From a virus: a DNA stretch of 35,805 nt. The notes under the pieces were generated by a model. That model searched no databases. It saw only the letters and a list, made by a program, of their open reading frames with translations, and was not told the DNA's origin. Numbering within the stretch: position 1 is the first letter of the stretch; every line of letters begins with the position of its first letter. Both the position numbers and the translations under genes were made by a program. This document shows, in pieces, positions 1 through 35,805 of the stretch. The DNA lies in the IMG/VR virus record IMGVR_UViG_3300034061_002014, positions 1-35,805 of that record. The stretch is one strand, 5' to 3'.

Positions 1-810
1 AATTAACCTCGATTTCTTTGATAGTGCTAAACCCTTTTGGGTGTATCACTAACCGTTCGTTTGGCTTAATGCAAAGGTGCGATTTTTGATAGTCAATATA
101 GTGTCCATCAACTATTTTTTTAGGACACGAAAGCATTTCAATTAGATTATTGTACGCTCTCTTGTGTACGATGTACGCAAACGCTCCCCACGTTTGGTTC
201 TGTTGTGTAAAGTATTGATTAAAATAAAAAGGGTTACGCCCAAACGAACCGCCTAAATAAAGGATGTGCCAATCTTTTGGTAACTGGTTCAAATACTTTT
301 CAAACTTGGCTTTGAAATCTTTTACAAAAGTTATGTCATCCTCGAAAATAGCAATGCACTCATAGCCTCTTTCTTTAGCTAATTTAATAGCGTTCAAGTG
401 GCTTTGAATACACGCATATTCGTTATTCGTTACACCTTGTATTGGTGAAACTATTTCCTTACCATCAACGGCAATTAGTCTTTCGACTTGAAGGGTCTTC
501 CCCTTTTCTTTGGCTGTGGAATAGAAACATCCTCTAGCCTCTTGTTTGGCACTAACGGTAAATCGCTCTCGTCTGTCGGCACTTCGTTCAAGGTTGATAA
601 AGACGCTGGGAACTGGGATGTTGATAGGCTTTTTTTTTGCCCCTTTTCTTCGCCCATGATTTCAAAGCAATGCGACTTTCCAAACTTGCAACATAAATTG
701 TAAAGTTCTTCGCTTATTTGTGTTTCTTTAGTGATAGACACTATTTGCGTTCCTGCTCGGAATACGATAGAACCAACGTCTTTTTTAAGTTTAAATTTTT
801 GAGGTATCAT
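1..810 (-). CDS. GT25-family glycosyltransferase expressed by -1 frameshift, left copy, 3' end cut by window
   Basis: This is the left allele of the frameshift product described in full at 34788-35614. The zero frame runs from the ATG at 810 to the A9 run (T9 at 630-638 on the given strand), then a -1 slip near 631 opens a frame that stays open to position 1. I read every codon from 631 to 2 in that frame: there is no stop, and the first possible ATG, GTG or TTG is the TTG at 397, well inside the conserved domain. The frame encodes FINLERSADRRERF, then AVDGKE, CIQSH and the FEDD motif, all GT25 hallmarks. Only the last few codons are missing because the window starts here. Compared with the right copy it has A for V and V for T changes in the N-terminal part. 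Confidence in the domain is high; the slip mechanism is inferred. Confidence 0.8.
475..810 (-). CDS. Small structural-operon protein of unknown function (frame 0 of the frameshift pair), left copy
   Basis: This 111-aa protein has a lysine-rich, apparently folded N-terminal part of about 58 residues (FKLKKDVGSIVFRAG, then KETQISEELYNLC) and a Ser/Thr/Pro-rich, probably disordered tail ending in KKRGRPFKSKD, an AT-hook-like basic end. It differs from its right-hand copy (35279-35614) at four residues: T/K, E/D, P/S and I/T. It begins 13 nt below a good Bacteroidota promoter (830-861), so it heads its own transcript. Its 3' part, from the A9 run at 630-638 to the stop at 475, is read in two frames: as this tail and as the N terminus of the GT25 enzyme. 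I do not recognise its family. The fold of the first 58 residues becomes the N-terminal domain of the fusion when the ribosome or polymerase slips. Confidence 0.75.
   Translation of the reverse strand: MIPQKFKLKKDVGSIVFRAGTQIVSITKETQISEELYNLCCKFGKSHCFEIMGEEKGQKKSLSTSQFPASLSTLNEVPTDESDLPLVPNKRLEDVSIPQPKKRGRPFKSKD
630..638 (-). promoter_or_regulatory. A9 slippery run for -1 frameshift, left copy
   Basis: On the coding strand the zero frame reads CAA AAA AAA AGC, which contains an A_AAA_AAA heptamer. A -1 slip here moves translation into the GT25 frame. The nine-A run is kept in the right copy although bases flanking it differ. Both ribosomal slippage and RNA polymerase slippage are possible on A9. 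Confidence 0.7.
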
Positions 811-826
811 ATTTGGGTTTTATTGT

Positions 827-1435
827 TTACAAATCTACTTTAATTAATTCCACACCGCAAATCTCGCCACGTTCAACTATCTTGTAACGTAGGCTATTTA
901 AGCCGTCAAACGCCCATGTGTGCTGTGTTCTATTCAATCGCTCTTTATTCGCCTTATATTCGCTTGTAATGGGTTGCTTTTCGTGTTTCAAAGACTTGTA
1001 TCTGTGTAACTCGAATTTAGTACGGATGTTGTTTAGCTTTGTTCGGGTAAATAGGTCATCATCTTCGCCACCCCAACCCCAATAATTATTTGAAAAGCCG
1101 TTGCAAGTTAGAAACGCCTCTTCTGTAAACGCTGTCACGCCACCAAAACAAGTATCGTACGGCACTTTGTAGTTGAACTGCTCACATAAACCGCTAAAGT
1201 GTACCGCTCCATCAATAGGCTGTGTGTAATGTGCTAGGCTTTCGGCTAATAAATCAACATCATGAAAGCAAACCGTTTTATCAGTGCACTCATTAAAGCC
1301 TATATTTAGCAATTTACCACGATTAAATAACTCGTTATTCGCTTGTTCGACTACTAAAATGTCAAAGCCTTTGTAATGCTCTACAAATTGTTTTAAGTGG
1401 TCAAGTCTGTTTCGGTATGGAACTATTAACTTCAT
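827..1435 (-). CDS. GT7-like (beta-1,4-galactosyltransferase type) glycosyltransferase
   Basis: This 202-aa protein probably transfers a sugar from a nucleotide-sugar donor. The first residues MKLIVPYRNR are the start of the GT7 fold. HDVDLLAE at about 58-65 is the metal-binding DxD-type motif, FGGV is at about 97, and WGWGGEDDDL at 119-128 is the strongly conserved acceptor/catalytic motif of the galactosyltransferase C-terminal domain. The length is short but spans the catalytic core; there is no signal peptide or membrane anchor, so it acts in the cytoplasm. It overlaps the upstream glycosyltransferase by 4 nt and its 3' end holds the promoter of the next unit. It sits in the head-gene operon, so the target could be a virion protein; a host glycan is the alternative. 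The family call is firm, the substrate unknown. Confidence 0.85.
   Translation of the reverse strand: MKLIVPYRNRLDHLKQFVEHYKGFDILVVEQANNELFNRGKLLNIGFNECTDKTVCFHDVDLLAESLAHYTQPIDGAVHFSGLCEQFNYKVPYDTCFGGVTAFTEEAFLTCNGFSNNYWGWGGEDDDLFTRTKLNNIRTKFELHRYKSLKHEKQPITSEYKANKERLNRTQHTWAFDGLNSLRYKIVERGEICGVELIKVDL
830..861 (-). promoter_or_regulatory. Bacteroidota-type promoter for the small protein/GT25/portal transcript, left copy
   Basis: On the minus strand there is TTTG (861-858), a 20-bp spacer, and TAGATTTG (837-830), an exact match to TTTG-N19..21-TAnnTTTG. Transcription would start near 823, giving a leader of about 13 nt before the ATG at 810. It lies inside the 3' end of the GT7-like gene. 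It is conserved in the right copy (35634-35665). Confidence 0.7.
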
Positions 1436-2073
1436 TGGTTACGGTTAATTATTGCCCACTCTAAGCACTTATCAATTCGCTCCGTCTGCTTTACGTCCTT
1501 GCCATACTCACGACTATACCACGAATGTATGCCAATCGGTTTGTCATTAATATTTATCACCGTACTTGTACCATCTGTTGAAGTTATCTTGGTAAAGTTA
1601 GCGTGTTTGAAGTTCAAATGTAGCCAATAGAATAAACCTGCAAACGGCTCATCTACATTGCCATTCTTTTCACACTGGTTTGCGTAGTCATAAACTTTTG
1701 ACTGGTCAAATTTTGACAACTTAGTTTTAATCATGTCCACATTAAATACATTAAAGAACGGATTGACGTGGAAAAATGATTTGTCTCTATGGCTAATCAC
1801 TCCCTTATCGGGAACACCACAATACGCAAAGTCATTTCGTGTCATGTCAGCAATTACTTGGTCAATTAAGTCCTCATTGGTCACAAAGAAATCTTCGTCA
1901 GCGTTTACGATTATGCCGTTGTAATTTTCAAGTATGTGAAGCAAGTAGGTAAGCGCACCATGAAAGCCTGTAAATTGTTGCAACCTTACAAAGGTATTGT
2001 CATCACGCCACAATGATTTGGCAAGGTTGTAAAGTTTATCGTTTGCGCTTCTGGTAACTATTGTTTTCTTCAT
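1432..2073 (-). CDS. Putative glycosyltransferase with a DExD-type metal motif
   Basis: This 213-aa protein begins with MKKTIVTRSANDKLYNLAKS and carries IIVNADEDFFVTN at about 55-66, which looks like the acidic, metal- and nucleotide-sugar-binding motif of a GT-A fold enzyme. Later come HVNPFFNVFN and IGIHSWYSREYGKD, which fit the acceptor-side loops of viral and capsular glycosyltransferases. There is no membrane segment. The gene overlaps its neighbours on both sides by 4 nt (ATGA type), so it is translationally coupled to the 113-aa gene upstream and the GT7-like gene downstream. The neighbourhood with two other glycosyltransferases supports the call. I cannot assign a numbered family from sequence alone. 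Confidence 0.65.
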   Translation of the reverse strand: MKKTIVTRSANDKLYNLAKSLWRDDNTFVRLQQFTGFHGALTYLLHILENYNGIIVNADEDFFVTNEDLIDQVIADMTRNDFAYCGVPDKGVISHRDKSFFHVNPFFNVFNVDMIKTKLSKFDQSKVYDYANQCEKNGNVDEPFAGLFYWLHLNFKHANFTKITSTDGTSTVININDKPIGIHSWYSREYGKDVKQTERIDKCLEWAIINRNQ

Positions 2074-2411
2074 ATCATTTTTTTATAAATATCAATCCGC
2101 CCTTTAATAAACTCGCACAATTCATATTTCTCCTGTGCTTTAAATTCAATCAATGCTTTAGTCAAAGCGTATTTATTTACCTTTAAAATCTCAGCATCAC
2201 TACTATTGTACTTCGCTATGTTAGTCGTGTAATATTTGCGCATGGACACCATCGCATCAACTAAGCATGAACTGCAATTCCCTTTTAATTTCTTGTTGAA
2301 AATTAGTGTATAGTAATATCGGATAGTTACTCCGCTTACATTGTTAACGCTACCTTTTGAGATTACATTCTCGTTTAACTCATTTAAAAAAGATAGGCTC
2401 CTCACTTCCAT
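2070..2411 (-). CDS. Hypothetical protein heading the glycosyltransferase cluster
   Basis: This 113-aa protein is not recognised. It has one CSSC pair (NCSSCLVDAM, about residues 45-54), which could be a redox or metal pair, and is otherwise helical and lysine-rich with no membrane segment. It follows the terminator after the tail-tube-like gene, and a TATATTTG box (2416-2423) ends only 4 nt before its ATG, so it may open a new transcript. Its stop overlaps the next glycosyltransferase. Its role may be linked to glycosylation or head assembly, but nothing in the sequence shows this. Confidence 0.6.
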   Translation of the reverse strand: MEVRSLSFLNELNENVISKGSVNNVSGVTIRYYYTLIFNKKLKGNCSSCLVDAMVSMRKYYTTNIAKYNSSDAEILKVNKYALTKALIEFKAQEKYELCEFIKGRIDIYKKMI

Positions 2412-2495: not shown

Positions 2496-3071
2496 TTATA
2501 CTACTGCTTTACTGATGTTATCCAAGTAAGCGATTGAAGTAGCCAAAGAACCGCCATTCAAGAAGTATTTAGGTAAGTAACGTTGCTCACCGCTAAGTGT
2601 CAATAACATTCCTGTGTCATCCTGTAAAGCCGTTCCAGTACCGCCTGCGAATGCCGATGCTTTCAATCCTTTGTCCAATCCGTAAACTTCAACTTGGTCG
2701 TTTTCGTTTTGGAAAATAACAATCAAGTCCTTTGCTTTAAACAAAGTCTCAACTGCTTCACGTTCAGCAGGTGTAGCTGTGAAGATTTTAATAGCTGCGC
2801 TGTGGTTGAATGTGTTGGTATTGTCACCAATCACGCCCTCAATAACACCGTTGTGAGTGTAGTCTTTGCCTGTAACCGTAATCAACTTATAAGCATCGCT
2901 CGAATTGTCAACGCCCATTGTAATGGTGTTAACGTATCCGTTAGCGTCAGTTGTAGTGCTTACGACTTGGCTCTTTTGCGTTACCCAAACTCTGCGGTTT
3001 ACACCGCCCACTTGGTTTTCTTTTTCGCATCCTTGTCCGATGCTTTCTAATATGTCTATGCAATCTGCCAT
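2496..3071 (-). CDS. Probable major tail (tube) protein
   Basis: This 191-aa protein is rich in beta-prone and small residues and follows the major capsid gene, the usual place for an abundant virion protein. It has the character of a siphovirus tail-tube subunit: segments such as YKLITVTGKDYTHN, AERAEVETLFKAKDLI-like helix (AEREAVETLFKAKDLI, about residues 99-114) and a central VIFQNENDQVEVYGLD strand pair, with a glycine-rich end. It sits between two strong hairpins (3096-3116 and 2436-2466), as abundant structural genes often do. I do not see a motif that proves the family. A head decoration protein is the main alternative. Confidence 0.55.
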   Translation of the reverse strand: MADCIDILESIGQGCEKENQVGGVNRRVWVTQKSQVVSTTTDANGYVNTITMGVDNSSDAYKLITVTGKDYTHNGVIEGVIGDNTNTFNHSAAIKIFTATPAEREAVETLFKAKDLIVIFQNENDQVEVYGLDKGLKASAFAGGTGTALQDDTGMLLTLSGEQRYLPKYFLNGGSLATSIAYLDNISKAVV

Positions 3072-3124: not shown

Positions 3125-4126
3125 TTAGAAACCTGCGATTACGTTCAAGTCACCGTAGCCGTATTGGTAGTCAATCATGGCACTAGCTGGTGAAAATACT
3201 TTGTCCTCTTTACGGTCGTAGAATGGCTCGATGCTTTCAAAACCGCTTCCATCAATCATGATGTGGTGGTTTGTAGGCAAAGTCAAGATAACTCGGTTCG
3301 GGTCAGTTACACTTGGAGGTGAACCTGCTGTTCCGTAAAGTGCCAAACCTCTGTCAACGTAGTTAGCGTTAATCATTGGAATACCTTGATAAGAGATGCC
3401 AGTCACACCGTTTTGAACCGATGCTCTGTCAATCAAGTTACCGCCTACTGCTGTGTTGATTTGTAAGAAACGGCTCCATGCTTCGTAAACTTTTTGAGTT
3501 ACAATGAACGCTTTAGTTCCGTTGTCAAAAGTTTTAAGCAAATCGCTTTGTGCTGTGTAGATACCATACAAAGTACCTTCGATGTTTGTTAAAGACAAAT
3601 CACTATCAGTAATTGCACCTGCATCAACCGTTCCGTCATTACCTGCAACACCTGCTAATAGTTTTTGATAAACACCGTCCATACCGCTCAAGAAGTTAGT
3701 AGTAGATGAAGTGTCAGCAAGGAATAAAGCGTAAAGTAAGTTAGTGTTGAAAGCGTTTGATTGCTTAGTCACGATACGGTCAACAATCTCTGGAGTAAGT
3801 TCCCCTTTTCTCCAACCATCTGGAAGGCTATCGCCCCAAATTGATTTTACGAAGTCGGTGTAGCATTGCTCAAAAGAAAAATCCAACTCGTATGGGTCTA
3901 ATGCCTTTTTAGTGATTGGCGTTCCTGTTTTGTAATCCCATCCACAAGTCGCCTTGATAGTTGGTGCATCTGTAAATTCAGCATCAAAGTATAGTTCTTT
4001 GCCGATTTTACCAAAGTGAATTGTGAACGGTAAAGCGTTAATCTTTGGGTCGTTCAATAGCGGTTTATAGAATACCTCGTATGGTATCGAACCGTTTGCT
4101 GGTAGTGCTGTTACTGCGTTTGCCAT
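3125..4126 (-). CDS. Major capsid protein
   Basis: This 333-aa protein builds the icosahedral head. It directly follows a ClpP-type protease/scaffold gene with a 31-nt gap, the classical head-gene order, and has the expected length of an HK97-fold subunit. Features include the early SIPYEVFYKPLLNDPKI segment, a long helical part around 115-150 (ELTPEIVDRIVTKQSNAF), a central TKAFIVTQKVYEAWSRFL stretch like the P-domain strand and spine helix, and the closing DYQYGYGDLNVIAGF. The start at 4126 has an A-rich leader (CAAAAACAATAAGACATG) without Shine-Dalgarno, as expected for Bacteroidota. Whether its N terminus is cleaved cannot be told from sequence. Confidence 0.85.
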   Translation of the reverse strand: MANAVTALPANGSIPYEVFYKPLLNDPKINALPFTIHFGKIGKELYFDAEFTDAPTIKATCGWDYKTGTPITKKALDPYELDFSFEQCYTDFVKSIWGDSLPDGWRKGELTPEIVDRIVTKQSNAFNTNLLYALFLADTSSTTNFLSGMDGVYQKLLAGVAGNDGTVDAGAITDSDLSLTNIEGTLYGIYTAQSDLLKTFDNGTKAFIVTQKVYEAWSRFLQINTAVGGNLIDRASVQNGVTGISYQGIPMINANYVDRGLALYGTAGSPPSVTDPNRVILTLPTNHHIMIDGSGFESIEPFYDRKEDKVFSPASAMIDYQYGYGDLNVIAGF

Positions 4127-4157: not shown

Positions 4158-5309
4158 TTATTTGTTTTCCTTTTCGGCTCTACGTTTAGCGATTACTTCC
4201 ATTGCTGAAAGTTTTGGCGCATCTTGGTTAGTGTTGTTTGATTGTCCTGCTTCGGCTTTGAAGTTCTTGCCAGTTACAAGTAACGCTTCAAAAGACTTCA
4301 CCTTTGTTGCAAGTGCAACGATTTCAGTCTTGGTGTCGTTAATCAAAGTTTCTTTCTCGTTTACGATTTCTTCTTTAGCGGCAAGTTGCGCTTTCAAATC
4401 TTCGATAGTTGCGTTTGCTTCTTTTAGTTTCGCATCTTCAACTTCAACTTCAACTTCTTTTACCGCTGTAACTACACCCTCTGCAACGGTGTAAGTAGCT
4501 GTATCTACAACGTAGTCACCATCTGCTAAAGGTGTCAACATTGTTTCGTCTTCAAATACCAAAGTGCCTTCAGTAAGTGTTGAGCCATCAAAGTGGATTA
4601 CTTTGCCGTCAATAGTTTCGGTCATTGCTGCCTTAAATAGTTTTGATGTGAGTTTTGCAAGGAAAGATTTTATTCCTGTCAACTCGGCTTTGATTTCGGT
4701 TGTTTCTGCCATGTTAATTGTTTTATTTTGATTAGATAAATACGCTGCTATTTTGTACTTCGTGAATGCCTTTATTTCGCCACCCATGATTTCATCTGCA
4801 AAGCCTAGTTCGATTGCTTCACTTGCTGTTAAGGTTGTTTGACGGTCTAAGATTGGCTTTAAATCTTCGGTTGACTTTCCTGTGATAGTCGAGTAGAAAT
4901 TAACTATCTTATTTTCCGCACGTTTCAAATCTTCCGCTAGTGCTTCCAAGTCTTTTGCTTCCATTGCGTTTGGTGCATCGGGCATCCAAAAAGGATTGTG
5001 AACAAAGAACTCGCTATTGGCGTACATTTTTCTTTTGCCCTTTTTACCAGCTTGGAATATAACCGTAGCTATACTACCACACATACCGTTCACAATAGTG
5101 TTAACCGTAAACGGCAAAGACATTAAACGGTCATGAATTGCAAAGCCTTCTGTTACTGAACCGCCACCGCTATTGATAAACACATTTAGTTCTTCAATAT
5201 CTTGGTGCTGGTCAATGAAATTGTTTAACGTGGTCAAGTCGAAAGACGCTTCATCAAAGAAACCTTGCTGACCGATATAACCGTTAATGTAAAGCGTTGC
5301 GCTGTTCAT
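4158..5309 (-). CDS. ClpP-type (S14) prohead protease fused to a scaffold-like C-terminal domain
   Basis: This 383-aa protein probably processes the prohead and scaffolds it. The N-terminal half is a ClpP fold: FINSGGGSV at 44-52, catalytic Ser79 in GMCGSIAT, His104 in FFVHNP and Asp155 in LDRQTTLTASEAIELGFAD, spaced as in ClpP. Residues from about 200 onward are acidic, with a predicted coiled coil (about 285-345: EVEVEDAKLKEANATIEDLK) and a Lys/Arg-rich tail. That pattern fits a scaffold. An in-frame ATG at 4712 (residue 200, MAETTEIKAEL) has an A-rich leader similar to that of the capsid gene and could start a free scaffold protein, as in lambda C/Nu3. Its promoter region overlaps the divergent plus-strand promoter at 5332-5372. 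Confidence 0.85.
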   Translation of the reverse strand: MNSATLYINGYIGQQGFFDEASFDLTTLNNFIDQHQDIEELNVFINSGGGSVTEGFAIHDRLMSLPFTVNTIVNGMCGSIATVIFQAGKKGKRKMYANSEFFVHNPFWMPDAPNAMEAKDLEALAEDLKRAENKIVNFYSTITGKSTEDLKPILDRQTTLTASEAIELGFADEIMGGEIKAFTKYKIAAYLSNQNKTINMAETTEIKAELTGIKSFLAKLTSKLFKAAMTETIDGKVIHFDGSTLTEGTLVFEDETMLTPLADGDYVVDTATYTVAEGVVTAVKEVEVEVEDAKLKEANATIEDLKAQLAAKEEIVNEKETLINDTKTEIVALATKVKSFEALLVTGKNFKAEAGQSNNTNQDAPKLSAMEVIAKRRAEKENK

Positions 5310-16559: not shown

Positions 16560-18719
16560 CTATCCGAATAGTTCGACTTGTGTTTTGGATAGTACTGCGC
16601 TTTCTAAATTCTTTTTGGATAAATCAAAATAGCTTTCTTTCAACTCAATTCCTATATATTTTCGACCAGTCTTTAAAGCAACATAACCCTCACTAGCTAC
16701 TCCACTAAAAGGACTTAACACAACCTCACCTTTATTGCACCACATGTTATAACACCACTCAATCGGCTGTAATTGTGTTGGAGTAATGTGACGTTCATCA
16801 TCACTTGCCCTAGCTGCTCGGTAGTCAAGCGTATCGCCCTCCTGCACGTCAATCCATATAGGTTCAGCTATTTTGCACCACAAATCAAAAGGAATATTAT
16901 TTTGGATTGGCACTTCATTTTCGCCTGGCTTTTTAAAAGTCAAAATGTAATCAGCTAATCCTGGTCTAACAATCGAACTATCTTTTTTAGTAGTACCCCA
17001 CATTAATTGCCTGTTTTTAGTTCTAATTGCTGCAGTCTTTGGGTCTTTACGTATCATGTTTTCAGCATGGAAGTAAAATCCGCAGTCTTGGAATAGTCTA
17101 ATTAAGTCACCTCTAAAGTCAACTATTGAATAAAAGCCATCACGTCCTAGTAATGTTGTGCTTTGCATCATGTGAATTGAAACTAACCTGCCTGGTTTAA
17201 TCACTCGGAGTAAATCGCTAATCAAATATTTAAAATGTTGTAAAAACTCATCATTGTTTTTTACGTTGCTCATGTCTTTTGGGTCATTACTGAAAACGTA
17301 AAGCGCACCAAAAGGTGGACTGAAAAAAGAATAGTCAATGCTGTTTTCGGGTAACTTTGCCACTTCCTCAACGCAGTCACCAAGTATTAACTTATAGTCT
17401 TCGCCTAAGTAACTTTTACTTTCAGTTTGATTAACTTGTTTTTTAGTGTTGGATAAAATAGCCAGTCGCATTTCATCTTGCATTTTTAAGAATTTAGCTT
17501 CTTTGTCTTGAATTGAGTTGATTACGTTTTGCATAGTGTCGGTTGTTATTAAGTAAATATTTACGGTTTTCTTTTGCCCAAATCGATGGGAGCGTCTAAT
17601 TGATTGGTAAAGACTTTCAAAGCTAAAATCGAGTGATGCAAATACTTGATTATTGCAGTTTTGATAATTCAAACCGAACTGCGCTATTTTGCTTTTAGTG
17701 ATTAATACACGGAACTCATTTTTAGCAAATCCTAGTAGGTGCTTTTCTTTAAACTCTACCGTGTCACTTCCCTTTACTTCAATAGCATCTGGAATAAGTG
17801 AGCGCAATAAATCACCTTCCTCATTTTGTTTAATCCAAATTATAAAGTTTTCTGTTGAACCGTTTACTATTTCGGCTACTTCGCCTAACCGTTCTAACTT
17901 AGTTATTCTTAATTCGTCATTAAAATTAGTTGCTGAAACTGAAACGGAGTTAAATAGCATCCCATTGTTTCTACTTTCGGTTACTATTTTGCGTTCGATG
18001 TAATTTAGCGCAGGTAGTGAATACCCGACATCATCAAACCCTAAGTCACTAGGTTTGCTAATCATAACCGCCCAACTACTTATCCATTGATAAAATTCCT
18101 TTTCAGCATATTTTTTAAGTCGATATTTATCACCTTTAATAAGTTCTTTATCAGTTGTGAAGTACATTGCCCTCATATCCTGCGAGGTCATTATGCTTAA
18201 AAACTCTGCATGATTACCTATTTCAAGTTCATCATTTGGTGAAGGTGTAGCGGTACATGCTAGTTTATAAGGTGTTTTTTCGAATAGCTGAAGTATTAAA
18301 GTTTTATAAGACCCCGAGTAATTTTTCAAGATACTACTTTCATCTAGTACAACTCCCGAATATTTAGAGCAATCAATATTTTCTAATTGCTCATAATTAT
18401 TTATGTCAATGCCAGTTAGGTCAATGCCAAATTTATTAGCCTCGTTTATTGTTTGACCCTTTACCGCTAAAGGTGCAAGTATCAAAACTTTGCCATTAGT
18501 TTGACGGCAAACTCTATTTGCCCATTCAAGTTGCATCAAAGTCTTACCAAGTCCGCAGTCTGCAAAGATGGCATACTTGCCTGCCTTTAATGCTCGTTTA
18601 ACAATAAACCTTTGAAAATCAAAAAGGTTTGAATTTAAGTCGGCTTCGTTGACTTCAAAGCCGCTTTCGATGTGGGTTTTCTGTTTCTTTTGCAGAAACT
18701 CTAAATACTCTGTTTTCAT
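16560..18719 (-). CDS. SF2 helicase fused to a beta-class DNA methyltransferase
   Basis: This 719-aa protein joins two enzymes. Residues 1-430 are an SNF2-like helicase: CGLGKT at 55-60 (Walker A), VVLDESS at 123-129 (motif II), ACTATPSPND at 154-163 (motif III) and QSIRRSHRFGQKK at 372-384 (motif VI). Residues 440-719 are an amino-methyltransferase: FSPPF at 466-470 (motif IV, the N4/N6 type) followed later by LSPFSGVASEG at 668-678 (motif I), an order of the beta class. No separate nuclease or specificity subunit lies beside it, so it is likely an orphan modification enzyme that protects phage DNA or marks it. It has a leader with AACCAAACCAAC and is preceded by the 29-aa gene and its promoter. 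Confidence 0.85.
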   Translation of the reverse strand: MKTEYLEFLQKKQKTHIESGFEVNEADLNSNLFDFQRFIVKRALKAGKYAIFADCGLGKTLMQLEWANRVCRQTNGKVLILAPLAVKGQTINEANKFGIDLTGIDINNYEQLENIDCSKYSGVVLDESSILKNYSGSYKTLILQLFEKTPYKLACTATPSPNDELEIGNHAEFLSIMTSQDMRAMYFTTDKELIKGDKYRLKKYAEKEFYQWISSWAVMISKPSDLGFDDVGYSLPALNYIERKIVTESRNNGMLFNSVSVSATNFNDELRITKLERLGEVAEIVNGSTENFIIWIKQNEEGDLLRSLIPDAIEVKGSDTVEFKEKHLLGFAKNEFRVLITKSKIAQFGLNYQNCNNQVFASLDFSFESLYQSIRRSHRFGQKKTVNIYLITTDTMQNVINSIQDKEAKFLKMQDEMRLAILSNTKKQVNQTESKSYLGEDYKLILGDCVEEVAKLPENSIDYSFFSPPFGALYVFSNDPKDMSNVKNNDEFLQHFKYLISDLLRVIKPGRLVSIHMMQSTTLLGRDGFYSIVDFRGDLIRLFQDCGFYFHAENMIRKDPKTAAIRTKNRQLMWGTTKKDSSIVRPGLADYILTFKKPGENEVPIQNNIPFDLWCKIAEPIWIDVQEGDTLDYRAARASDDERHITPTQLQPIEWCYNMWCNKGEVVLSPFSGVASEGYVALKTGRKYIGIELKESYFDLSKKNLESAVLSKTQVELFG

Positions 18720-32642: not shown

Positions 32643-32991
32643 TGCTAACCGAATTTATTACATCACATAAAACAATGTCGGTTATCTTGTTCACCTTAAA
32701 TCCTGCGTCAAAGTCAGCATCATTTACTTTTGCCACTACTTCGGCATAAACACGCCCTGCTATAAAATTAGAACTTGCACCCAAAACAATCGCTTTGACC
32801 TTACCCAACAAACTACTCACCACTTCCATTTCATTTAGTGCTATTTCAACTAAAATGTTTTCACGTCTTTGGTATAGGTATAAAATAACGTCTTCGCAGT
32901 TACTTATTTGGATAGGGTCGCCATCTTCACCAACTAACTGAATGTTAATGGTCAAGTCTTCACCCTGCACTAATTGTTTTACTGCTCCCAT
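32632..32991 (-). CDS. Small fibre-anchoring or baseplate protein
   Basis: This 119-aa protein (MGAVKQLVQGEDLTINIQLV) is strand-rich and looks like the N-terminal domain of baseplate upper proteins: an Ig-like beta sandwich with INIQLVGEDGDPIQISNCED and VYAEVVAKVNDADFDAGFKV. It lies between the connector-like protein and the fibre, overlapping both. It may dock the fibre on the tail. Confidence 0.5.
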   Translation of the reverse strand: MGAVKQLVQGEDLTINIQLVGEDGDPIQISNCEDVILYLYQRRENILVEIALNEMEVVSSLLGKVKAIVLGASSNFIAGRVYAEVVAKVNDADFDAGFKVNKITDIVLCDVINSVSNDN

Positions 32992-33668
32992 ATTATGCGT
33001 CTGTTGTTTTCGTCAAAGTAATATTTCCTATTCTTCACACCTGCACCAATAATGCTGAATGGCAATTTGGTTTTGACTTGTTTGCAAAGTGTATCACGCT
33101 CATAAACCACACCGTCAAGTGTCCAATTAACATCGTTTAAATAATTAATCATTTCGTTTGCGTAGGCTGATGTCTGACCTGCTATTGAATTAAGCAACTC
33201 GGCACGTCTTTTGTCGCTCACTTGACCGAACCCCTCTTGTTGAAACTGCTCTAATCCCCATTGTGTACCGTGCAAACCTAAATAAGGCATATATCTTTTC
33301 ATGGTGCAACCTGCTAACCAACGTTTCACAAACACATTATAGAAGTTCATCAACTCATAATCGCCCCAATCTGCACTCGGTGGTGCTTCATTTACTGCGA
33401 TGGCATCTAAAGCGATGTAATAAACACCATTATAAAATACTTTATCGCCTTCAACATACGTTCTATTCGTTCTGTATTGCTGTGGGTTCGCTAGTATAGC
33501 GTTATTAATATCTTCGATTAATTCTTTCGGGAGTTCATTCTTAACGTCCAACGTCTGCGCTAATATCACTTGTTGCTCAATCTGTGCTGTTGGTGTATTC
33601 GGACTTAACACCGCAAAGAACGGTGTTATATCCACTACGCTTATCCATGCTTTATTATTCGGGAACAT
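32979..33668 (-). CDS. Head-tail connector-like protein with a CBM-like insert
   Basis: This 229-aa protein resembles the DUF6712-type connectors of Bacteroidota phages that follow portal genes: NAILANPQQYRTNRTY, later WLAGCTMKRYMPYLGLHGTQ and NWTLDGVVYERDTLCKQVKT. In the middle, residues about 70-100 (TYVEGDKVFYNGVYYIALDA, then PPSADWGDY) look like a carbohydrate-binding module of the CBM5/12 type, whose aromatic residues line a sugar-binding face. It overlaps the portal gene by 14 nt. The connector call comes from place and pattern; the insert is an inference. Confidence 0.6.
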   Translation of the reverse strand: MFPNNKAWISVVDITPFFAVLSPNTPTAQIEQQVILAQTLDVKNELPKELIEDINNAILANPQQYRTNRTYVEGDKVFYNGVYYIALDAIAVNEAPPSADWGDYELMNFYNVFVKRWLAGCTMKRYMPYLGLHGTQWGLEQFQQEGFGQVSDKRRAELLNSIAGQTSAYANEMINYLNDVNWTLDGVVYERDTLCKQVKTKLPFSIIGAGVKNRKYYFDENNRRIIWEQ

Positions 33669-34791
33669 TTGGCATATTTATTTGAGTGTTAACAATACCA
33701 TACTCGCTCAAAGTCCAATCTATACTACTGCCGTACATTGTAGCCATAGTTTCTTGAATTAACCCCTGCACTGGTTTAACGGCTTCCCTTAATTCTTTTC
33801 GTGCTTGTTCTATTGCGTTTGTGTTTCCTAAAACTGCTGCTTCGCTGTAACCTAGTAAAACGGGATGAACGCCAAATAAACGGCAAATAGAACGCTCGAT
33901 AATATCACGCTTCGTGTTTGATGCTTCTAGTATTGGCTTCGGGTCGGTTGCTGTGTATGTTGGTGCTTGTTCGGGAGTTTCAACAAAGTGCGCTAAAACT
34001 CCGAAACGTGAAGTCAATCCGTCTTTATTTTTCTGTAAGCCTGTGAACTGCGTCATTGCTTCTTCTACACGCTGACGGTCTGTTAATCCATCTTCACCTT
34101 CCGTTGTTTCATTCACTCCGCTAAACGTCATGATACCGCCCAAAACAAAGCCATTCAATACGGCTTCATAGTCCATCTTTGATAACTCACTTGACGTTTT
34201 CAAATCTTCAAATGCCGCTAAATAATCGGGAAGTCCATAATGCCCACTATCAAACGGATTGCCATTATAAACGTAAAGTATTTCGCCACGCCCACCAAAG
34301 TGGTTGACGTTTATATCCATCGCTTCAAATGTAGCTACTTCGCCCTGAAAGTCTTGCAACTCAACCCACGCATCACGTCTATATTTGTCAGTTTGTATTG
34401 TCGGGTTATAAAACCAAGTGCCATTTATTCCACGTCTGAATTTCTGCAACGGCATCACTTCCGATTTTCCAACTCGACCGTTTCCAAGTCTTGAAACATG
34501 GATAACAACCGCATTAAAATACGACCATGAAGTAGCAAATATTCCTACAAACTTATCCGCTGTTTGCTTTGAGTTCACTTTGAACCCCGAAGCAACTGGA
34601 GAAACAAATCCATCCGCTTGAATGTACTCCGCATATTTCTTTGCGGCTTTCTTTGCCACGCCACTATTATTGATTGCTTCAATTAATTCTAAAGGCAAAT
34701 TGTCATTCCATCCATAACGAAAATATCCATCACCTTTTTTTTCAGTAGTGACTGGCAAAATGTTTTTGAATGTTCGTGTATGTTTGCTCAT
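33655..34791 (-). CDS. Phage portal protein
   Basis: This 378-aa protein forms the ring at the head vertex. Its N-terminal part has GWNDNLPLELIEAINNSGVA, and its stem region includes SKMDYEAVLNGFVLGGIMTF and ERSICRLFGVHPVLLGYSEA, the helix and loop seen in phage portals, then KELREAVKPVQGLIQETMA. The length fits a compact portal. It overlaps the GT25 stop by 4 nt (ATGA), so it is coupled to that gene. It lies far from the terminase genes, unlike in most phages, but follows the capsid cluster if the genome is circular. Confidence 0.75.
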   Translation of the reverse strand: MSKHTRTFKNILPVTTEKKGDGYFRYGWNDNLPLELIEAINNSGVAKKAAKKYAEYIQADGFVSPVASGFKVNSKQTADKFVGIFATSWSYFNAVVIHVSRLGNGRVGKSEVMPLQKFRRGINGTWFYNPTIQTDKYRRDAWVELQDFQGEVATFEAMDINVNHFGGRGEILYVYNGNPFDSGHYGLPDYLAAFEDLKTSSELSKMDYEAVLNGFVLGGIMTFSGVNETTEGEDGLTDRQRVEEAMTQFTGLQKNKDGLTSRFGVLAHFVETPEQAPTYTATDPKPILEASNTKRDIIERSICRLFGVHPVLLGYSEAAVLGNTNAIEQARKELREAVKPVQGLIQETMATMYGSSIDWTLSEYGIVNTQINMPNVPE

Positions 34792-35614
34792 TGTATGCCT
34801 TTATAATTAACCTCGATTTCTTTGATAGTGCTAAACCCTTTTGGATGTATAACTAACCGCTCGTTTGGCTTAATGCAAAGGTGCGATTTTTGGTAGTCAA
34901 TATAGTGACCGTCCACTATTTTTTTAGGACACGAAAGCATTTCAATTAGATTGTTGTACGCTCGCTTGTGTACAATGTACGCAAACGCTCCCCACGTTTG
35001 GTTTTGCTGTGTAAAGTATTGATTAAAGTAGAAAGGATTACGCCCAAACGAACCGCCTAAATAAAGAATGTGCCAATCTTTTGGTAACTGGTTCAAATAC
35101 TTTTCAAACTTAGCTTTGAAATCTTTTACAAAAGTTATGTCATCCTCGAAAATAGCAATGCATTCGTAGCCTCTTTCTTTGGCTAGTTTTATAGCGTTCA
35201 AGTGGCTTTGAATACACGCATATTCGTTATTCGTTACACCTTGAATTGGTGAAACTATTTCTTTGCCATCAACGGCAATTAGTCTTTCGACTTGAAGGGT
35301 CTTCCCCTTTTCTTTGGCTGTGGAGTAGAAACATCCTCTAGCCTCTTGTTTGGCACTAGTGGTAAATCGCTCTCGTCTGTCGACACTTCGTTCAAGGTTG
35401 ATAAAGACGCTGGGAACTGGGATGTTGATAGGCTTTTTTTTTGACCTTTTTCTTCACCCATAATGTCAAAGCAATGTGACTTGCCAAACTTGCAGCATAA
35501 ATTGTAAAGTTCTTCGCTGATTTGCGTTTCTTTAGTGATAGAAACAATTTGCTTTCCTGCTCGGAATACGATAGAACCAACGTCTTTTTTTAGTTTAAAT
35601 TTTTGAGGTATCAT
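34788..35614 (-). CDS. GT25-family glycosyltransferase expressed by -1 frameshift, complete right copy
   Basis: The fusion is about 275 aa: residues 1-60 from frame 0 (to the A9 run at 35434-35442), then 215 residues in the -1 frame. The -1 frame opens with PINIPVPSVFINLERSVDRR, whose INLERSVDRR (72-81) is the classic GT25 start motif, followed by LIAVDGKEI, NEYACIQSH and IAIFEDD at about 153-159, the catalytic acidic motif. Without the slip, the first start codon in this frame is TTG at 35201, after the INLER, AVDGK and CIQSH motifs, so an intact enzyme cannot arise from any canonical start. No stop or indel spoils either frame in this copy or in the left one. The enzyme overlaps the portal gene by 4 nt. 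It may glycosylate a virion part or host surface sugar. The GT25 call is firm; frameshift expression is strongly inferred. Confidence 0.85.
35279..35614 (-). CDS. Small structural-operon protein (frame 0), right copy
   Basis: This is the 111-aa product when no slip occurs, ending in KKRGRPFKSKD. It differs from the left copy (475-810) at four residues. Its last 52 codons (35279-35435) overlap the start of the GT25 frame. Within that dual-coded part I count four differences between copies, fewer per base than in the rest of the first 874 bp. The N-terminal 58 residues are common to both products. Function unknown. Confidence 0.75.
   Translation of the reverse strand: MIPQKFKLKKDVGSIVFRAGKQIVSITKETQISEELYNLCCKFGKSHCFDIMGEEKGQKKSLSTSQFPASLSTLNEVSTDESDLPLVPNKRLEDVSTPQPKKRGRPFKSKD
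35434..35442 (-). promoter_or_regulatory. A9 slippery run for -1 frameshift, right copy
   Basis: The coding strand reads CAA AAA AAA AGC; nine As are conserved with the left copy while the bases just upstream differ. In the -1 frame an upstream stop (TGA at 35454-35456) bounds the open stretch, so entry must occur between 35453 and the INLER motif. Confidence 0.7.
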
Positions 35615-35630
35615 ATTTTGATTTTATTGT

Positions 35631-35805
35631 TTACAAATCTATTTTAATTAGTTCTACACCGCAAATCTCGCCACGTTTAACTATCTTGTAACGTAGGCTA
35701 TTTAAGCCGTCAAACGCCCATGTGTGCTGTGTTCTATTCAATCGCTCTTTATTCGCCTTATATTCGCTTGTAATGGGTTGCTTTTCGTGTTTCAAAGACT
35801 TGTAT
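35631..35805 (-). CDS. GT7-like glycosyltransferase, right copy, 5' part beyond the window
   Basis: The stop and the last 57 or so codons of a second copy of the GT7-like gene (827-1435) are present. The reading frame is open from 35805 to the stop at 35631 and differs from the left copy only at a few silent or mild positions. The catalytic motifs lie in the part outside the window. Confidence 0.8.
   Translation of the reverse strand, partial: YKSLKHEKQPITSEYKANKERLNRTQHTWAFDGLNSLRYKIVKRGEICGVELIKIDL
35634..35665 (-). promoter_or_regulatory. Promoter of the small protein/GT25/portal transcript, right copy
   Basis: TTTG (35665-35662), 20-bp spacer, TAGATTTG (35641-35634) on the minus strand; the same as in the left copy. 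Confidence 0.7.

Follow-up and report, generated by a model that had tools for sequence, protein, structure and literature searches.

The window, that is, the whole stretch of 35,805 nucleotides of viral DNA that was analyzed, carries a head operon in which the genes of a ClpP-like protease, a candidate major capsid protein, a tube/adaptor-like protein, a 113-residue protein, a protein with a DED motif (a putative glycosyltransferase), a GT7 enzyme, a 111-residue ORF, a GT25 domain, and the portal protein follow one another on the minus strand in this order (Table 1). The record ends in a direct repeat of 1001 bp (1–1001 versus 34805–35805, with 49 mismatches). Since its ends are repeated, the genome maps as a circle of 34,804 bp, and the GT25 domain that is cut at the start of the window is found complete in the second copy of the repeat. 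To judge from their divergence, the two copies seem to be strain variants, ~5% apart, joined at the record ends of a circularly mapped genome. The replication genes are akin to those of Flavobacterium, Nonlabens, Polaribacter, and Bacteroides phages, and the capsid protein distantly resembles a capsid-like gene of Bacteroides phage BS-TP3 (22% identity); on the basis of these two features, the host of this uncultured phage is probably a member of Bacteroidota. Outside the operon, a single ORF (16560–18719, minus strand) combines a DEAD/ResIII-type helicase with an N6_N4 DNA methylase.

Table 1. Features of the head operon, with positions given on the numbering of the window.
Feature	Position	Strand	Remarks
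ClpP-like head maturation protease	4158..5309	-	Pfam CLP_protease E 2.5e-32; phrog_94 E 2e-43
Major capsid protein candidate	3125..4126	-	phrog_1623 (virion structural) E 1e-5; BS-TP3, 22% identity
Tube/adaptor-like virion structural protein	2496..3071	-	phrog_19979 (virion structural) E 1.5e-4
113-residue protein with CSSC motif	2070..2411	-	Resembles N-terminal half of Bacteroides phage gp5
Putative GT-A-type glycosyltransferase with conserved DEDFF motif	1432..2073	-	ATGA overlaps on both sides
GT7 enzyme (β-1,4-galactosyltransferase-like), HDVDL and WGWGGEDDD	827..1435	-	PF02709 E 1e-24; B4GALT1 structures E 2e-35
111-residue ORF, frame 0, first repeat copy	475..810	-	Domain 1–52 and disordered tail ending in KKRGRPFKSKD
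111-residue ORF, second repeat copy	35614-35279	-	
Slippery A9 run, frame 0 CAA AAA AAA AGC	630..638	-	Join point of the frames
A9 run, second repeat copy	35442-35434	-	
Dual-coding overlap: tail of 111-residue protein (frame 0) and GT25 N terminus (frame -1: PINIPVPSVFINLERSADRRERF)	475..629	-	Both frames constrained
GT25 domain, frame -1, first copy, cut by window start	1..629	-	PF01755 E 3e-12 for the full -1-frame reading
GT25 domain, frame -1, complete, second copy	34788..35433	-	Stop overlaps portal start
Portal protein	33655..34791	-	PF04860 E 4e-11; phrog_11226 E 6e-15

A preliminary description of this DNA had placed three glycosyltransferases between the capsid/tube genes and the portal gene, within positions 827–2073 and all coupled by short overlaps. 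Their place in the operon is as described, and two of them are indeed members of GT7 and GT25, whereas the "DExD-type" enzyme is a glycosyltransferase only putatively. The span 827–2073 includes two of the three genes, with GT25 lying outside it, at 629–1 and 35433–34788. Overlaps of the ATGA type are present at three joints (2070–2073, 1432–1435, and 34788–34791), at the last of which the TGA of GT25 at 34788 overlaps the ATG of the portal gene, but the GT7 gene and the 111-residue ORF are separated by a gap of 16 nt. On the other side of the portal gene, a DUF6712 protein (32979–33668, minus strand) neighbors the glycosylation module and shows a sub-threshold match to the carbohydrate-binding CBM_5_12 family (E 8e-4, 19.8 bits versus a cut-off of 26.2).

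Enzymes of the proposed glycosylation module

The GT7 enzyme is assigned to its family unambiguously, with profile scores well above the curated cut-offs both for PF02709 (Glyco_transf_7C, E 1e-24, 86.5 bits versus 23) and for PF13733 (Glyco_transf_7N, E 1e-13, 51.2 bits versus 27). Nearly its whole length can be aligned with human β-1,4-galactosyltransferase 1 (E 2e-35), a strikingly close match between a phage protein and an animal enzyme. The DVD metal-binding motif (HDVDL) and the catalytic motif WGWGGEDDD are present in the window and in every locus that covers the gene. The phage protein thus shares both motifs and the whole-domain match with B4GALT1 and B4GALT7, whereas it differs from them in being a minimal soluble enzyme of 202 residues. 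An additional ORF of 121 residues (6223–6570 in contig L035) lies between the DED-motif gene and the GT7 gene in a single member of lineage C.

The GT25 domain is recognized once translation in the -1 frame is carried across the overlap with the preceding ORF. Read in this way, it matches PF01755 (Glyco_transf_25) with 47–59 bits in three lineages, versus a cut-off of 24, and the match includes the N-terminal INLxRxxDR motif of the family, in the form INLERSxDRR. Its family identity is then unambiguous, and its activity is predicted. The nearest relative of known structure is procollagen galactosyltransferase 1 (E 2e-7), which is a protein glycosyltransferase. In common with the lipopolysaccharide galactosyltransferases and procollagen galactosyltransferase 1 of this family, the phage domain includes the INLERSxDRR and IFEDD motifs, and the Pfam match spans most of the family; it differs from them in the absence of its own start codon and in the location of its N-terminal half, which is encoded in a shifted frame inside another gene. 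A pattern search of genome contigs found no prophage or cellular homologues of this GT25, and among INPHARED phages the only matches, with less than 37% identity, are in Lak and other huge phages. A GT25 protein of L077 (27% identity) was rejected as a related system and serves as a contrast case, since its gene, located in a glycan island, stands by itself and has a start of its own.

The DED-motif protein is ~70% identical in the three lineages, with an invariant DEDFF motif. It has no match above the cut-off in Pfam, PHROG, or NCBIfam, and its AlphaFold2 model is poor (pLDDT 51). Several nucleotidyl-sugar transferase folds are among the Foldseek matches of this pLDDT 51 model, in a list whose best E is 0.07. 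With no family match and a poor fold model, the protein stays a putative glycosyltransferase. Two other matches, to GAPDH in the PDB (E 0.0085) and to RfaH in NCBIfam (E 0.0035, far below the cut-off), were judged to be due to chance. No relative of the DED-motif protein or of the portal protein was found among INPHARED phages.

Frame structure and selection in the overlap

The preliminary description spoke of a GT25 fusion with an N-terminal part of 60 residues. This fusion exists as a frameshift product only: GT25 is open solely in the -1 frame of the 111-residue ORF (810–475), which also contains its N-terminal half, and the two frames meet at the A9 run (638–630). One base back from CAA AAA AAA AGC, the -1 frame reads KKKPINIPVPSVFINLERSADRRERF... 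and continues as GT25 to position 34788. The predicted trans-frame product has 275 residues and comprises a folded N-terminal domain of ~52 residues followed by GT25. Beyond what was described earlier, the fusion thus requires recoding, and the un-fused 111-residue protein is itself under selection.

The same gene order, the -1 offset, and a run of nine or ten A residues are found in 18 other contigs from 18 datasets, which belong to three lineages (A, L012–L022; B, L023 and L024; C, L035–L039) with portal identity of ~62–65% between lineage A and the others. Such recurrence shows that the layout of the fusion is not due to chance. Both copies of the repeat carry the A9 run, and the frames are maintained in A9 and A10 variants alike. 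In nearly all members of lineage A, the -1 frame is closed 11–23 nt before the A-run, and in lineage B a stop in this frame directly precedes the run. In the window copies and in most relatives, there is no ATG, GTG, or TTG ahead of the point at which the N-terminal half of GT25 would be lost, which rules out an internal start for GT25 in most members. The sole exception among the 18 contigs is L035, whose -1 frame has an upstream TTG.

An in-frame slippery heptamer, A_AAA_AAA, is present where frames 0 and -1 overlap. No RNA structure that could act as a downstream stimulator is shared in the 75 nt after the A-run; however, many slippery motifs like A_AAA_AAA suffice in E. coli to lift frameshifting over the background level without any stimulator (PMC4066793), so that such an element is not obligatory. 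A tract of nine or ten A residues is also of the kind that permits slippage of RNA polymerase. The slip may therefore take place at the level of either the ribosome or RNA polymerase, with an identical product in both cases. The pair formed by the 111-residue ORF and GT25 was also considered as a tail assembly chaperone of the G/GT type, an identity rejected because the pair sits between GT7 and the portal gene and not in the tail region. A second candidate recoding site lies elsewhere in the genome (14477–13795, minus strand), where a 148-residue ORF downstream of the terminase is accompanied by a 96-residue ORF in its -1 frame, with a T10 run (14079–14070) at their overlap point that is retained in five lineage-A contigs; this pair does look like a tail assembly chaperone G/GT and is a candidate for one.

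Polymorphism in 13 lineage-A sequences reveals how the two frames are constrained. Before the A-run, 29 of the 38 polymorphic sites fall at codon position 3 of the 111-residue frame, and after the stop of this ORF, position 3 of the GT25 frame accounts for 64 of 82. Within the overlap, polymorphic sites at third positions are divided evenly between the two frames (9 and 9), and only two changes are non-synonymous in both frames, versus 8.9 expected. In comparisons between lineages, the protein of one frame was kept while its codons were recoded synonymously (six tests with 4000 recodings each); in none of the six did any of the 4000 recodings match the similarity observed in the other frame, and this frame was left free of stops in 0.3–2.9% of the trials. 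By these measures, both the 111-residue protein and the GT25 read-through are real products of selection, and the recoding of GT25 is well supported.

The N-terminal domain and relatives without glycosyltransferases

In the AlphaFold2 model of the 111-residue protein, residues 1–52 form one small β-β-β-α-β domain, with pLDDT of ~91 for residues 11–50, whereas the tail is disordered, with pLDDT below 60. The best matches of this model in a Foldseek search of BFVD include head-to-tail connector proteins of actinobacteriophages, at a level that is not significant (E 0.04), and a fold search of the PDB returned nothing.

Related phages of gut Bacteroides lack glycosyltransferases at this place and have one head gene immediately ahead of the portal gene. 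In Bacteroides phage BS-TP3, the corresponding genes are found in the order protease, capsid, adaptor, gp5, and portal, without any glycosyltransferase. An ORF of portal size follows immediately after members of the gp5 family in 32 of the 33 loci checked, and none of 14 records bearing gp5 contains a match to PF01755 or PF02709, with the relatives of the window matched as positive controls. The 113-residue protein of the window can be aligned with the N-terminal part of gp5 at a score that none of 200 column shuffles reaches against the gp5 family, and hhalign yields P 3e-4 for this protein and BS-TP3 gp5. In turn, the second part of gp5 can be aligned with the N-terminal domain of the 111-residue protein, weakly and in the right order, with 4 of 200 shuffles reaching the score. 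Two gp5 members, L082 and L097, end in RRGRPSSK, similar to the KKRGRPFKSKD of the 111-residue protein. This comparison suggests that an ancestral pre-portal head gene was invaded and divided by the glycosyltransferase genes, and that GT25 thereafter overlapped the tail of this gene in the -1 frame. The earlier proposal that the N-terminal ~60 residues of the fusion could tether it to a particle protein agrees with the confidently predicted small domain and with its gene slot, which is taken up in relatives by one head gene next to the portal gene.

Proposed function and comparison with known systems

Starting from the gene order, the frame structure, its conservation, the selection on two frames, and the catalytic motifs of GT7 and GT25, all of which can be read directly in the DNA, we can propose how the operon might work. 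A glycosylation module would have been inserted into a head-morphogenesis operon. The main product of the 111-residue gene would be the 111-residue protein, with its small folded domain and basic disordered tail, and the minority product would be the 275-residue trans-frame protein, composed of that domain and, after it, a complete GT25. The switch between them would be the -1 slip at A9 or A10, by the ribosome on A_AAA_AAA or by RNA polymerase inserting an A. Since its gene lies beside that of the portal, the N-terminal domain would probably join or chaperone the assembling head or portal vertex. Through the fusion, nascent particles would then receive a limited supply of GT25, comparable to the delivery of enzymes by Gag-Pol in retroviruses, and GT25, GT7, and the putative DED-motif enzyme could build a short glycan on virion proteins. 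Here we infer the docking on the head, the virion as the substrate, the order of the three enzymes, and the efficiency and level of the slip. On balance, we favor the general reading, in which recoding at a sub-stoichiometric level couples GT25 to a head protein adjacent to the portal and virion proteins are glycosylated during assembly. Its more specific form, in which the frameshift fusion places the glycosyltransferase in or on the procapsid by means of a head-protein domain, in the manner of Gag-Pol, so that assembling virions are glycosylated, and in which invasion by the glycosyltransferase genes split the pre-portal gene, is put forward tentatively.

As regards the substrate, none of the three proteins of the module has a strongly hydrophobic segment, making a membrane-type Gtr action less likely, and no Gtr-type flippase or membrane glycosyltransferase was found among the genes scanned. 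These two features, together with the confinement of the module to the head operon, make us lean towards virion proteins over the surface glycans of the host. Glycosyltransferases of phages that alter host glycans are nevertheless well known, with serotype conversion as a cited case (PMC12619734), and enzymes acting on surface glycans occur in both GT25 and GT7. The recoding could thus be real and the enzymes could still modify surface or precursor glycans of the host, leading to receptor masking or superinfection exclusion, with the N-terminal domain as a tag for solubility or expression; the placement in the operon would reflect nothing but late co-expression. We regard this as unlikely, considering the lack of membrane segments and partners just described and the fact that a free cytosolic enzyme would hardly be expected to come from a conserved, dual-coded fusion with a domain of the head slot.

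Another explanation would be that the slip sets the ratio of two products of the glycosyltransferase module, the 111-residue protein being an accessory subunit or inhibitor of these enzymes and not a head protein. Its gene does follow immediately after the two other glycosyltransferase genes and always accompanies them in the clade that bears them. However, phages without glycosyltransferases retain, in collinear position before the portal gene, a gene whose N-terminal CxxC domain is similar, and this gene, together with the RRGRPSSK tail in L082 and L097, points to an older role of the 111-residue protein in the head, which renders an accessory function rather improbable. There is very little to recommend a modification of phage DNA of the type carried out by the glucosyltransferases of T4, since the location in the head operon and the fusion to a head-slot domain fit it poorly and, to our knowledge, GT7 and GT25 are not DNA-modifying families. 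The window proteins scanned include no base hydroxylase or pyrimidine-modifying gene, which would be at odds with such a role even though phage glycosyltransferases often glycosylate modified DNA (PMC12619734 and references therein). Finally, it is scarcely credible that a homopolymer assembly error split a normal fusion gene or that the overlap is a decaying pseudogene, for although A-runs are prone to error and the record ends stem from two strain variants 5% apart, each of the 18 contigs, drawn from 18 datasets, has the phase seen in the two repeat copies, the frames are preserved with A9 as well as with A10, and purifying selection in the two frames excludes sequencing error and pseudogene alike, unless a single systematic error were common to all the contigs.

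The reading that ties GT25 to the head protein can be compared with several known systems. Slips of the -1 type are known in structural genes of phages, in the tail chaperones G/GT as well as in proteins of the capsid and the tail that bear Ig-like extensions (PMC5009743). The present case resembles them in the -1 slip within a structural operon, the minority product, and the shared N terminus with an additional C-terminal domain, but the extension here is a complete GT25 enzyme in place of a chaperone or an Ig-like domain, and the site is located in a pre-portal gene and not in a tail chaperone or capsid gene. Gag-Pol recoding in retroviruses and totiviruses delivers an enzyme to the particle (PMC5009743), and in both cases a structural N-terminal part is fused by recoding to an enzyme, apparently bringing a limited number of enzyme molecules to the particle. 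The differences are that the fusion described here, known from sequence, belongs to a phage head operon, that its enzyme is a glycosyltransferase, and that no cleavage is proposed. In mycobacteriophages, glycans are present on subunits of the capsid and the tail tube (Freeman et al. 2023, as summarized in PMC12619734), which establishes virion glycosylation as real in phages. According to the same summary, the glycosyltransferases are likewise encoded by the phage; as far as is known from it, they are not recoded fusions with a head protein, and they belong to another host group and to other glycosyltransferase families.

In the part of the literature that was covered, no paper was found on a phage glycosyltransferase that is produced by frameshifting as a fusion to a protein of the head operon. 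What would be new here is a glycosyltransferase as a recoded fusion, while frameshifts in structural genes and the delivery of enzymes by Gag-Pol were already known. The arrangement suggests that in this virus an enzyme that adds sugars is coupled to the assembly of the viral particle itself, and it makes testable the question of how phage-encoded glycosyltransferases find virion proteins; if the proposal is true, an encoded low-copy tether between a head domain and a glycosyltransferase would answer this question directly and would be the phage equivalent of enzyme packaging by Gag-Pol. Additionally, annotation that does not allow for frameshifts misses the N-terminal half of GT25, so that conventional gene calling would truncate the enzyme, and similar recoded enzymes may be common in metagenomic phages.
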